Shown here one piece after another: positions 6,191-12,833 of a stretch of DNA of 22,123 nt. A program made the translations under genes and the position numbers. Within the stretch, counting starts at the first letter, position 1. The number at the start of each line of letters is the position of its first letter. The notes under the pieces were generated by a model, which was not told where the DNA came from, made no database searches, and worked only from the letters and a program-made list of their open reading frames with translations. Origin of the DNA: a virus; the IMG/VR virus record IMGVR_UViG_3300035703_000430, positions 1 through 22,123 of that record; one strand, given 5' to 3'.

Positions 6191-6411
6191 TCGACCCCAC
6201 CCCGAACGAGGCCGAGGCGATGACCGTCGGCGGCCAAATGGGCGGCGCGTATCTCGAGAGCATCGGCAAATCCGATCTCGCCACCCTGACCGAGACCGAA
6301 TGGGACCGCTTCATCGATGCGGTCGTCACTGGATATTGCGACCACCTGCGTGAGCTTGCGGTCAAGGACCGCAAACGCCTCGACGCCATGACCCCCGAGG
6401 TGCCCTTCTGA
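6025..6411 (+). CDS. DUF6511-type phage protein with zinc-finger-like cysteines
   Basis: A 128-residue protein resembling DUF6511, a small family I associate with alphaproteobacterial prophages. The N-terminus has a zinc-like set (Cys9-x2-Cys12 ... Cys41-x3-Cys45, then Cys49) around FGWFNPHYRLADP. The C-terminal half, with PTPNEAEAMTVGGQMGGAYLESIGKSDLATLTETEWDRFIDAVVTGY, looks helical. It begins 166 bases before the helicase stop, in another frame, and its own stop overlaps the primase start (TGATG). The first residues are well formed, so ATG 6025 is credible despite the long overlap. Its function is unknown; the context suggests an accessory to the helicase or primase. Confidence 0.8.
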   Translation: MRELHTGLCAVCHRQPRVFGWFNPHYRLADPRRDTSRKHLCSRACQDICHGRKGMIDPTPNEAEAMTVGGQMGGAYLESIGKSDLATLTETEWDRFIDAVVTGYCDHLRELAVKDRKRLDAMTPEVPF

Positions 6412-8681
6412 TGGCTGACACATCCTTCATGGCGCGCTTCGGCGCGCGGCTTGTCACCAATGGCTACGCCATTCTGCCCATCGGCCCGGGAACGAAGAAG
6501 CCCGGCCGCTTCCAGCGCGGGGCATGGGCGGATTACCCGGAATGGAACCGCCATGCCGAACGCGGCACGACCGAGGTTGAGGTGGCCACATGGTCCAGCT
6601 GGCCCGATTGCGGCATCGGGATCGTCGGTGGTGCCGTGGCGGCGGTGGATATCGACATCGCCGAGGACGCTGAACTGGCTCTCCGGATCGAGCGGCTCGC
6701 CCGGGAACGTCTCGGCGACACACCCGCATTGCGGATTGGCCGTGCCCCGAAACGTATGCTGGTCTATCGCACGGCAGCGCCTTTCCGTGGCATCAAGCGC
6801 CATCCGCTGGAGGTGCTCTGCCTTGGGCAACAGTTTGTGGCCTATGCCATCCACCCCGACACAGGCGCACCCTATGCTTGGCCCGAGGAGGGGCTGGCGG
6901 ACCTCGACATCACCGAATTGCCCGAAATCTCGGCCGAAGCTGCCACCGCTTTCCTCGACGAGGCCTATGCGTTTCTGCCAGAAAACCTGCGGCAGCGCGG
7001 GCTGGCTGCCCTATCGCCGCCCGCGGAAGTCTCACGCAGCCACAGCCAGATCGGAACCTTGCCGGCAATCGAGGCGGCGCTCGCCTGGCTGCCCAATGCA
7101 GAACTCGACTATGACAGCTGGATGCGGGTTGGCATGGCGGTGAAAGGGGCGCTTGGCGAGGCCGGGGCTGATCTCTTTGCTGATTGGTCAGCGCAGACGG
7201 CCAAGGATGTGCCCGCGACCACGATGAAGGCCTGGGCCAGCTTCAAGCCCGACCGGATCGGAGCTGGCACGATCTACCATCTCGCCATTGAACGCGGCTG
7301 GCAGCCTGAACCTGATCTTCGCCTGGACGGCAGTCTGCCCGATGGTGGAGACCATCCGGCGGCCGGTTTGCTGGCGAGGCTGGATGTTGCTGCGGCTGCC
7401 ACCGCAGTCTCTGCGCCCACACCTGCGTATGCGCTGGCCATCCCTGACGGGCTGGTCGGCGATCTGACGGATTACATGCTGTCCACCGCCCGGCGCCCGC
7501 AGCCGCTTTTGTCGCTTGGGGCCAGCCTCTGCGCTATCGGTGCCCTGATGGGGCGGAATTACCGCACCGAGAGCAACCTGCGCTCGAACCTCTATGTCGT
7601 GGGCATCGCGGACAGCGGATCGGGCAAGAACCACGCCCGTGAAATCATCAACGAGACCTTCTTCGAGGCGGGGCTGGCCCATCATCTCGGCGGCAACAAG
7701 ATCGCTTCCGGCGCGGGGCTTCTGACCGCGCTGCACCGCCAGCCCGCGATCCTGTTCCAGATCGACGAGTTCGGCATGTTTCTGTCGGCCGCCGCCGACC
7801 GTAAGCGCAGCCCGCGCCACATCACCGAGATCCTCGACAACATGACTGAGCTTTACACGGCAGCGGGCGGGATCTTCCTCGGCGCGGAATACGCAAATCG
7901 TGACGGCACGAACGAGCGACGCGACATCAACCAGCCCTGCCTTTGCGTCTATGGTACCACGACGCCCTTGCACTTCTGGGGAGCGCTGCAGGGGGCAAAC
8001 GTGGTCGACGGCTCGCTGGCCCGTTTTCTGATCCTGCCGAGCGATGAGGACTATCCGGATGAAAACATCGCCGTTGGCATCCGGCAGGCGCCGCCGACCT
8101 TGATCAATGGGCTGCAGCTCATCGCGTCGAGTGGGGGCGGGAAAAAGGGCAACCTAACGGGCAAGACCGCGGATCAGAACACTGCCGTGCACCCGATGAT
8201 TGTGCCGATGACCGAGGAGGCTCGGGCCCGGTTCCGCCAGCTCAGCATCGAATTGACGGAGGAATTGCGGGCCGCCGCTGGAACGGCCTTCACGGCAATC
8301 CTCGCCCGCATCGGAGAAAACGCCCTGAAGCTTGCGCTCATCGTGGCGGTGGGTCGTGATCCAGTAAGGCCCCAGATCGAGATCACGGCGGCGGATTGGG
8401 CCATCGGTTTCGTGCGGCACTATGCACAGCGCACGATGGAAGCGGTCGAGCGGCATGTCGCGGACACCGAGACCGAGGCACACCTGAAGCGGCTGAAGGA
8501 GATCATTCGCGCGTCAGGGGCCAAGGGCATCACCAAATCCGAGATCACTCGGGCCTCGCAATGGCTGAAATCGCGCGACCGAGACGAGATCCTGCTGACC
8601 CTGATTGAGAGCGGGGACATCACCACCGGCATGCGGGATACCGGAGGGCGCAGGGCCATGGTCTACCGGTTGCTGACGTGA
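6411..8681 (+). CDS. Bifunctional primase-polymerase / helicase fusion
   Basis: A 756-residue replication protein. Residues about 10-190 form an archaeo-eukaryotic Prim-Pol domain: GTKKP (27-31), the VDIDIAED metal site (79-86) and QFVAYAIHPDTGAPYAW (141-157). A PriCT-2-like linker follows (about 215-300, DYDSWMRVGMAVKGALGE ... AWASFKPDRIGAGTIYHLA). The C-terminal part is a P-loop helicase/ATPase with Walker A ADSGSGKNH (400-408) and Walker B ILFQIDEFGMFL (447-458). It can be expected to make primers and drive unwinding at the phage origin. The stretch immediately downstream (8682-9073) is an iteron-like region it may act on. The start overlaps the preceding stop (TGATG). The DUF3987-type C-terminal assignment is from memory of the family. 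Confidence 0.92.
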   Translation: MADTSFMARFGARLVTNGYAILPIGPGTKKPGRFQRGAWADYPEWNRHAERGTTEVEVATWSSWPDCGIGIVGGAVAAVDIDIAEDAELALRIERLARERLGDTPALRIGRAPKRMLVYRTAAPFRGIKRHPLEVLCLGQQFVAYAIHPDTGAPYAWPEEGLADLDITELPEISAEAATAFLDEAYAFLPENLRQRGLAALSPPAEVSRSHSQIGTLPAIEAALAWLPNAELDYDSWMRVGMAVKGALGEAGADLFADWSAQTAKDVPATTMKAWASFKPDRIGAGTIYHLAIERGWQPEPDLRLDGSLPDGGDHPAAGLLARLDVAAAATAVSAPTPAYALAIPDGLVGDLTDYMLSTARRPQPLLSLGASLCAIGALMGRNYRTESNLRSNLYVVGIADSGSGKNHAREIINETFFEAGLAHHLGGNKIASGAGLLTALHRQPAILFQIDEFGMFLSAAADRKRSPRHITEILDNMTELYTAAGGIFLGAEYANRDGTNERRDINQPCLCVYGTTTPLHFWGALQGANVVDGSLARFLILPSDEDYPDENIAVGIRQAPPTLINGLQLIASSGGGKKGNLTGKTADQNTAVHPMIVPMTEEARARFRQLSIELTEELRAAAGTAFTAILARIGENALKLALIVAVGRDPVRPQIEITAADWAIGFVRHYAQRTMEAVERHVADTETEAHLKRLKEIIRASGAKGITKSEITRASQWLKSRDRDEILLTLIESGDITTGMRDTGGRRAMVYRLLT

Positions 8682-8715
8682 TCCAGGGGCTTCCTTCAAT
8701 AACGGGGTTTCTGCA

Positions 8716-8952
8716 ATTGAAAGAAGTCGGGGGTCAAATGACTGTAAAGAAACGGCATTTTGACTTCCTTCACTTCTTTCAATCTTTCAAGAGGATCCCT
8801 GTATGTGTGTATCCTCGCGCGCGCGGTTAAAATAAGGATGAGGTACCTCATGAAATAATTGAAATATTGAAAGAAGTTATATTATATATATAGATCAACA
8901 CCTTAGGGGCCAACTTATTTCAAAAGCCCCCGTTGAAGGAATTGAAAGAAGT
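8716..8952. repeat. ATTGAAAGAAGT iterons, four exact and several degenerate
   Basis: Exact 12-mers are at 8716-8727 (+), 8772-8783 (-), 8866-8877 (+) and 8941-8952 (+). A near copy, TTGAAATAAGT on the minus strand, is at 8913-8923. In three of the four, a half-copy sits directly upstream in the same orientation with an 8-nt period: CTTGAAAG before the minus copy, ATTGAAAT at 8858-8865, and TTGAAGGA at 8933-8940. The related TTGAAGGAA occurs inverted at 8691-8699 and direct at 8933-8941. The plus-strand copies are 150 and 75 bp apart. The 8-nt tandem half-site suggests a protein that contacts two adjacent sites. Confidence 0.85.
8838..8851. repeat. 14-bp perfect palindrome within the origin-like region
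   Basis: ATGAGGTACCTCAT is its own reverse complement. It lies between the second and third exact iterons, 26 nt before the A/T run. It is a plausible site for a dimeric DNA-binding protein (repressor or initiator). No promoter assignment is made. Confidence 0.6.
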
Positions 8953-9073
8953 TCCGGGCGGCCCGCTCGCCCCGCGCCTGACATGATCAGACCACCCTTC
9001 GGGGCCTGGCGAGATCGCAGCCTTCACCGGCCAGCCCTCCCGCCACGCTCGCCAAAGCGAAGAGGAGGTCTCC

Positions 9074-9547
9074 TTGACCCAATCGACAATCCTGGCCCTG
9101 GATTTGGGCACTACCACCGGCTGGGCCCTGCGTGGCCATGACAGCCTGATCACCACGGGCACGGCCAGCTTCAAACCCGGTCGCTACGATGGCGGCGGCA
9201 TGCGCTATCTGCGCTTTACCAATTGGCTGACGGAACTCGACCGGCTGTCCGGACCCATCTCGGCGATCTTGTATGAAGAAGTCAGGCGGCACGCGGGCAC
9301 TGACGCCGCCCACGTTTATGGCGGCCTCATGGCCTCACTGACCGCGTGGGCTGAGTTGCGGGGAATTCCCTATGCTGGAACGCCGGTGGGCACGATCAAA
9401 CGCCATGCCACCGGCCACGGAAACGCGCCCAAGCAAGCCATGATCGCAGCCGCCCGTGCGCGGGGTTACAGCCCGGCGGACGACAACGAAGCCGACGCCA
9501 TCGCCATCCTGCACTGGGCTCTGGAGAACCAGGGAGGTGCAGCATGA
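9074..9547 (+). CDS. RuvC-like Holliday junction resolvase (TTG start)
   Basis: A 157-residue RNase H-fold nuclease of the phage RuvC-like group. The first strand LALDLGTTTGWAL carries Asp10. ILYEEVRRH (65-73) supplies Glu68 or Glu69. The C-terminal helix ADDNEADAIAILHWAL (135-150) supplies Asp137 and Asp141, completing the four acidic residues expected in RuvC. It would cut Holliday junctions or branched replication intermediates before packaging. The start is a TTG preceded by a strong AGGAGGT at 9063-9069, with only 4 nt spacing; no ATG is near. This is the first gene after the origin-like region, and its stop overlaps the next ATG. Confidence 0.88.
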   Translation: MTQSTILALDLGTTTGWALRGHDSLITTGTASFKPGRYDGGGMRYLRFTNWLTELDRLSGPISAILYEEVRRHAGTDAAHVYGGLMASLTAWAELRGIPYAGTPVGTIKRHATGHGNAPKQAMIAAARARGYSPADDNEADAIAILHWALENQGGAA

Positions 9548-11552: not shown

Positions 11553-11600
11553 TTTCGCGGACCTTTGGTTCGCGCATCAAGCATCCTCAAGGACATTCCC

Positions 11601-12833
11601 ATGGACGTTGTCGACCTGCCGCTCGAGCAGATCATTCCCTATGCGCGCAATCCGCGGCGCAACGAGCAGGCAATCGCGACGGTCGCGGCCTCGATCCAGG
11701 AATTCGGGTGGCGCCAGCCTATCGTTGTCGACGAGGCGATGGTGGTTCTCGCTGGGCACACGCGGCTGGAAGCGGCGCGCAAGCTCGGCTTCAAGACCGC
11801 GCCGGTGCATGTCGCCAAGGGGCTGACTGTCAGCCAGGCGCGTGCTTTTCGGATCATGGATAACCGCTCGAGCGAGAATGCCGAGTGGGACAAGGACCTG
11901 CTGAACCTCGAACTGTCGGACCTGCTGGAGGCTGATTTCGATCTCGGGCTGACGGGCTTCACAGACGACGAGTTGAACGCGCTAATGTCCAGCCTCGAGG
12001 AGGGCACCGGTCCGCAGGAGGGTGAGGACGATGTTCCGGAAACCCCTGAGGATCCGATCAGCCGCCCGGGCGATCTCTGGATCCTTGGCAACCACCGGCT
12101 GCTCTGTGGCGACAGCACGGTCGCGACGGATGTCGAGCGCCTGCTCGGCACTGTAAAACCGCTCCTGATGGTGACAGATCCACCCTACGGCGTGGAATAC
12201 GATCCGAGCTGGCGCAACCAGGCAGGTGCGGCAAAGACCAAGCGCACCGGCAAGGTGCTGAATGACGACCGCGCCGATTGGCGTGAGGCCTGGGTGCTGT
12301 TTCCGGGGGATGTCGCCTATGTCTGGCACGGTGCCTTGCACGCAGCGACAGTGGCCGAAAGCTTGGAGGTCGCAGGCTTCACCATCCGGTCCCAAATCAT
12401 CTGGGCCAAGGATCGGCTGGTACTGAGCCGGGGTGATTACCACTGGCAGCACGAGCCCGCTTGGTATGCCGTGCGCAAATCCGGCAAGGGCCATTGGGCG
12501 GGGGACCGCAAGCAAACCACGCTCTGGCAGATTGCCAACAAGGATCAAGACGAAAAAACCGTGCACGGCACGCAGAAGCCCGTCGAATGCATGCGGCGGC
12601 CGATCCTGAACAACTCGAGCCCGGGTCAGGCGGTCTATGAGCCCTTCATGGGATCGGGCACAACACTGATCGCAGCCGAGACGACTGGACGGGTCTGTTA
12701 CGGCATCGAACTGAACCCGGCTTACGTCGATGTGGCGGTTGCGCGCTGGCAGAAGTTCACCGGCAAGCAGGCGTTGATTGATGGTAGCGACACCACTTTC
12801 GATGCGCTGAAGGCAGAGCGCGCGGCCGCATGA
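11601..12833 (+). CDS. ParB-domain / DNA (N4 or N6) methyltransferase fusion
   Basis: A 410-residue fusion. The N-terminal ParB/sulfiredoxin-like nuclease domain (about 1-130) carries NPRRNEQAI and VVLAGHTRLEAARKLG (GHTR at 52-55). The C-terminal DNA methyltransferase carries catalytic DPPY (TDPPYGVEY, 192-200) before the AdoMet-binding FMGSGTT (349-355). This is the beta-class order typical of phage adenine or N4-cytosine methylases. No restriction enzyme is beside it, so it is an orphan methylase, perhaps shielding phage DNA from host restriction or mimicking host methylation. ATG 11601 with AAGGA 7 nt upstream is preferred to a TTG at 11565. Its 3' end overlaps the next start (ATGA). The target sequence cannot be read from the sequence. 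Confidence 0.92.
   Translation: MDVVDLPLEQIIPYARNPRRNEQAIATVAASIQEFGWRQPIVVDEAMVVLAGHTRLEAARKLGFKTAPVHVAKGLTVSQARAFRIMDNRSSENAEWDKDLLNLELSDLLEADFDLGLTGFTDDELNALMSSLEEGTGPQEGEDDVPETPEDPISRPGDLWILGNHRLLCGDSTVATDVERLLGTVKPLLMVTDPPYGVEYDPSWRNQAGAAKTKRTGKVLNDDRADWREAWVLFPGDVAYVWHGALHAATVAESLEVAGFTIRSQIIWAKDRLVLSRGDYHWQHEPAWYAVRKSGKGHWAGDRKQTTLWQIANKDQDEKTVHGTQKPVECMRRPILNNSSPGQAVYEPFMGSGTTLIAAETTGRVCYGIELNPAYVDVAVARWQKFTGKQALIDGSDTTFDALKAERAAA

Follow-up and report, generated by a model that had tools for sequence, protein, structure and literature searches.

A putative iteron origin downstream of a phage primase-helicase gene, and the correspondence between its repeat word and the wing of the encoded protein

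The primase-helicase gene and the repeat array

The window, which is the whole stretch of 22,123 nucleotides analysed here, is a 22-kb fragment of an alphaproteobacterial phage with a replication/recombination module. The module encodes SSB, a Sak4-like protein, a Cas4-type exonuclease, a helicase, a primase and RuvC, and is followed by terminase, portal and head genes. Positions 11565-12833, downstream of the replication module, encode a ParB-like domain fused to a DNA methyltransferase (PHROG 498, ParB-like families). An earlier note on this DNA, made from the letters alone, had placed an iteron-like array directly after the primase-helicase gene. The stop codon of this gene was found at 8681, and the array lies in the interval between it and the start of the ruvC-like ORF at 9074. 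The features are listed below.

6411-8681, + strand: primase-helicase gene, 756 aa, proposed initiator (Pfam/PHROGs, AlphaFold models)
8454-8678, + strand: codons of the C-terminal winged helix, residues 682-756, proposed iteron-binding domain (model, PDB fold matches)
8637-8654, + strand: wing-tip codons, residues 743-748 (DTGGRR), covarying with the AAGT repeat half
8689-8727: iteron cluster I, 8689-8700 (-, two mismatches) and 8716-8727 (+, exact), positions conserved in relatives
8763-8790, - strand: iteron cluster II, a tandem of three units at 8-9 bp spacing, the exact copy being 8772-8783
8851-8877, + strand: iteron cluster III, which faces cluster II, with three units at 8-bp tandem spacing, the exact copy being 8866-8877
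8877-8892: pure A/T run, proposed unwinding element, a conserved A/T island in relatives
8913-8952: iteron cluster IV, 8913-8923 (-, one mismatch), half-site 8933-8940 (+) and exact copy 8941-8952 (+)
8985-9055, + strand: conserved structured element, within the ~80 nt of 8980-9061 between the repeats and ruvC, covarying stem 9002-9012 with 9040-9050
9074-9547, + strand: RuvC-like Holliday-junction resolvase gene (PHROG 159)

By Pfam, the ORF at 6411-8681 contains Prim-Pol (AEP), PriCT_2 and DUF3987 domains, and a P4-type TOPRIM primase domain is not present; the AlphaFold model adds a C-terminal winged helix. When an SF3 helicase was looked for in the helicase region, Pfam returned DUF3987, and part of this region is of low confidence in the model. 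The C-terminal 112 residues had a mean pLDDT of 87.6, the last 75 of them forming the winged helix, and strands 737-744 and 747-754 of the full-length model place the wing tip at residues 744-747. The best PDB structural matches in the fold search were winged-helix proteins (Z 9.6-11), many of them DNA-binding. The P4 origin-binding domain was absent among the matches listed, which is uninformative either way, and the modelled winged-helix fold alone does not establish function. Compared by sequence with solved structures, the winged helix gave weak RPC39/Rpc34 winged-helix matches only, while Pfam gave no match to this domain for the window protein and a weak Rpc34 match for one relative. No full-length relative was found in phage records, where the best-ranked matches reach 24-42% identity over one half to three quarters of the window protein's length.

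The repeated 12-mer ATTGAAAGAAGT occurs in four exact copies, at 8716 (+), 8772 (-), 8866 (+) and 8941 (+), as had been claimed. At up to two mismatches, eight matches were obtained in the window, seven of them inside the 264 bp of 8689-8952; this is far beyond the chance level for the whole window in dinucleotide shuffles (mean 0.58, maximum 3). At up to one mismatch, the word was found nowhere else in the record. The inverted copy TTGAAATAAGT at 8913-8923 (-) differs at one position across 11 bases, and half-copies at 8783-8790 (-), 8859-8866 (+) and 8933-8940 (+) each lie 8-9 nt 5' of a full copy (three of the four full copies), in agreement with the earlier note except that it gave the distance as 8 nt. 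The 16-nt A/T run had been located exactly (8877-8892). The steps of 150 and 75 bp between plus copies were also correct; relatives keep the 75, and the 150 varies (141-151). Two further inverted copies (8689-8700, 8763-8774) had been overlooked, as had the facing arms of clusters II and III, each 19 nt long (8772-8790 and 8859-8877), 95% complementary and 68 nt apart. The A/T island (about 80-85% A+T) at cluster III is conserved in position across relatives. In many relatives a loosely conserved CAAnnnnTTAGG element stands 3' of the A/T run, at 8893-8910 in the window. Neither DnaA boxes nor exact IHF sites were found in the window; a DnaA box is common in plasmid origins and is not obligatory there.

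The structured element at 8980-9061 accompanies every iteron class. Nine of the genomes or records searched have a single copy each, and a genome with three such prophages has three. Its stem has 94% standard pairs and a covariation score of 0.289, where shuffles scored 0.166 ± 0.016 and slid controls no more than 0.10. With 26 G-U pairs versus 2 A-C mismatches, the element looks like RNA of the ruvC sense strand and probably belongs to the ruvC leader. It is overlapped by an alternative hairpin, CC[AG]GACC / GG[TC]C[CT]GG. Rfam gave no match at threshold in the repeat/hairpin region, and a snoRNA identity suggested by an Rfam match there was rejected, its score being at chance level.

Repeat words and wing classes in relatives

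Scans with the window primase and four diverged relatives yielded 175 distinct primase-plus-downstream loci. In most of them the slot 3' of the primase holds an array of nearly identical layout, with 8-9 bp tandem units in facing arrays and an A/T island beside the second array. Loci with a DTGGRR or ETGGRK wing keep TTGAARGAAGT at near-constant offsets from the primase stop, which in the DTGGRR group are about 7 (-), 34 (+), 81 (-), 90 (-), 184 (+), 231 (-) and 259 (+). The earlier note had proposed to look for the 12-mer behind the same primase-helicase in related prophages. The exact 12-mer is missing in more than half of them, which for this exact word is the outcome that the earlier note had named as counting against an origin; mostly another repeated word is found instead at similar positions. 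Most other loci have a different word in much the same layout, TTGAARGATYT in the majority. Diverged lineages use TTGAGGAATTT, TTGAGGGATTT, TTGACGGAAGT or TTGACGAATTT, and the clearest alternative array, in locus L238, consists of eleven nearly perfect TTGAGGGATTT copies.

Some loci depart from this arrangement in their own ways. In L071 and L169, iteron copies (such as TTGACGGAAGT) lie within the 3' end of the primase coding sequence. L317 (3001-5600) has a diverged primase, with helix DRTRFLTRRDREE and wing KTGTKPL, followed by repeats of the unrelated word AAAAGCGTAAA. Primases with the C-terminal tail GPWRDASGRK... (L002, L008, L013, L018, L054, L103 and L112) are followed by few recognisable repeats despite a TK-class wing.

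Loci were classed by wing and, separately, by the counts of two 3' half-words. With both sets of classes defined after inspection of the data, the wing xTGGR[RK] (GR class) went with TTGA..GAAGT in 73 of 74 loci, and the wing xSST[KR]Q and similar (TK class, for example L003) with TTGA...ATYT in 95 of 100, with five ties. The one clear exception, L031, has a GR wing and B-like sites. Five of five new loci agreed, these being close relatives of the earlier set. On a FastTree tree of primase residues 1-680, the wing class changed 23 times and the word 22 times; among 16 independent supported contrasts the word followed the wing in 15 and opposed it in 0 (sign test, p = 6e-5). On the tree of the downstream RuvC, wing and word each changed 22 times, and 6 of 6 contrasts were concordant.

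The signal is concentrated at the wing. Information about the word was 0.74-0.94 bits per residue column at 743-748 versus at most 0.45 bits at residues 1-680, and the top-scoring residues of the whole protein were 743-746, 748 and 755, the last behind the wing. Pairs of opposite class can be 95-97% identical over residues 1-742, with the HTH up to 100% identical, and differ at the wing. Across about 170 relatives the word and a few wing-tip residues thus vary together, suggesting a readable code for origin recognition, and it is well supported by this covariation that the wing tip (743-748) would set the 3' half, AAGT versus ATYT.

For the recognition helix, SQW-type helices were found with TTGAA, RK.QF and RRTQFLDQR helices with TTGAC, and RRTQF.DKR helices with TTGAG or TTGAA. 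All of the five main HTH/wing combinations found obey this two-part rule. As helix-linked changes on the tree number about two to four, the helix half of the code is a suggestion, and the data weakly support the recognition helix as setting the base after TTGA.

The proposed origin and its alternatives

We propose, with a probability of about 0.86, that 8689-8952 is the phage replication origin, at which the primase-helicase's own C-terminal winged helix would bind the iterons, its helicase part would melt the A/T run and its Prim-Pol part would prime. The array is best read as the earlier note read it, as an iteron origin equipped with an A/T unwinding element. This reading gains strength from the relatives, whose replacement words vary together with the DNA-binding wing of their own primase, and that wing is thereby indicated as the binder. 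The winged helix of the protein encoded upstream is predicted to bind 11-bp TTGAARGAAGT sites (cf. TTGAAAGAAGT), read in two parts, with the wing tip specifying the 3' half and, more tentatively, the recognition helix the base after TTGA. Facing arrays II and III, with tandem units every 8-9 bp, may load helicase subunits as two rings, one on each side. After that the helicase part could open the A/T island (8877-8892) and leave priming to the Prim-Pol part.

The GC-skew inflection that the earlier note had recommended looking for was seen locally and only partly at larger scale. All 69 loci with sufficient flank had higher skew downstream of the site than upstream, and in 52 it changed sign; these loci share genes and so are not independent. 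In the window the cumulative G-C minimum falls at 7976. Whole prophages were mixed, about 4 of 7 having the cumulative minimum within 4 kb. GC skew is only suggestive as a sign of replication start here. Together with the missing DnaA box, the exception L031 and the sparse sites behind the tailed primases, the mixed skew of whole prophages counts against the proposal.

The array might instead be mainly an operator or autoregulatory site, through which the primase or another protein controls transcription of the primase or ruvC, with replication starting elsewhere. Its position upstream of ruvC, adjoined by a structured leader, would fit such a role, but at least seven sites over 260 bp together with an A/T island far exceed the needs of an operator, and the covarying binder is the replication enzyme itself. 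Sigma-70-like promoters and terminators were looked for and not found, the absence of a promoter being weak evidence. We regard an operator as quite improbable. It is scarcely credible that the array serves plasmid-like partition, incompatibility or copy control (like P4 crr) and is not the start site. Iterons often serve in copy control, and the ParB-like/methyltransferase fusion at 11565-12833 would be in keeping with such a site; against this, the record has no second iteron cluster with the word, and the cluster has its own A/T island.

It also seems highly improbable to us that another host or phage protein binds the repeats and that the covariation with the primase wing reflects physical linkage only. 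Tens of bases separate the wing codons from the first site, and wing and repeats are exchanged together as one block, so linkage explains part of the covariation. Two findings argue that it is not the whole story: the remainder of the gene parts from the word at least 15 times, the wing never, and the rule persists in lineages of only 60-65% identity whose recognition helices differ greatly. Sites as far as 300 bp away also keep pace with the wing.

If the primase-helicase is the binder, this would locate an origin and identify a binding domain for the family, which occurs in many Rhodobacterales and other alphaproteobacterial prophages. Initiator pairs about 95% identical, with different wings and different words, make initiator-origin specificity directly testable and form a natural mutational series for it. 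More tentatively, and with rather less than even confidence, the origin code may be modular and two-part, with the wing-plus-origin block swapped some 20 times under otherwise unchanged primases. Such switching of origin type, if true, could perhaps spare co-resident prophages from replicon incompatibility, or evade Odn-type nucleases that mimic origins; Odn is the origin-directed nuclease of PMC8263062, which also covers the Vibrio PLE RepA/ori modules. At least two relatives occur in each of five genomes of the first set, where 5 of the 7 pairs are of mixed class, too few for a test; a second copy of the family was present in only one of 395 family genomes. Genomes with two or three such prophages, often of different origin class, are L003/L017/L053, L009/L012, L018/L039 and L020/L021. 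Ruegeria intermedia and Thalassovita autumnalis are examples of bacteria with both classes.

Comparison with known systems

No earlier origin description for this primase-helicase family was found in the literature searched, most subscription papers lying outside it. The general kind, an iteron origin with a self-encoded initiator, is already known, and the wing-word correspondence is the new part. The best reading is that the initiator would be the primase-helicase itself, as with P4 alpha, SaPI Rep and pRN1 ORF904; publications describe this scheme for these three and also for Cch2 and PLE RepA.

According to the available part of PMC7581432, SaPI Rep and SCCmec Cch2 are initiator helicases that bind short iterons via a C-terminal domain, and, as in the window, the iterons lie directly downstream of the initiator's own gene. 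Unlike the window protein, Cch2 is there described as belonging to a different helicase family, without a Prim-Pol domain and with three 5-nt iterons in the origin; that part of the paper reports no wing-word code for Cch2 or SaPI. P4 alpha resembles the window protein in uniting primase, helicase and C-terminal winged helix, and its winged helix binds origin repeats (cited in PMC4234260), whereas its primase is of TOPRIM type and that of the window is an archaeo-eukaryotic Prim-Pol with DUF3987. In Vibrio PLE RepA the DNA-binding domain covaries with the iteron origin, the cognate pairing being established by experiment and module exchange inferred; RepA differs from the window protein in its RepA_N family, semi-palindromic iterons of about 30 bp and N-terminal DNA-binding domain (PMC8263062).

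Similar in architecture are pRN1 ORF904 and Bordetella phage BPP-1/BIP-1, which likewise combine Prim-Pol and helicase, with a C-terminal winged helix in ORF904, and have an origin, proposed or tested, 3' of the gene (PMC4234260). Their helicase is of the SF3 type, whereas Pfam assigns DUF3987 to that of the window protein. For Prim-Pol/winged-helix initiators a large stem-loop downstream of the gene was proposed, and the bound motifs were 'not yet identified' (PMC4234260). Downstream of the BPP-1 primase (L468, 808-911) lies an inverted repeat that we found to be built from arrayed copies of a 9-bp unit, GAGGCAAAC. These inverted arrays resemble the facing clusters II and III and are the likely counterpart of the published BIP-1 'stem-loop'. 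Together with the 19-nt arms of clusters II and III, they suggest that the stem-loop and iteron readings may be one thing, and the wing-word result may supply the missing motif for Prim-Pol/winged-helix initiators, those of BPP-1 and pRN1 included.
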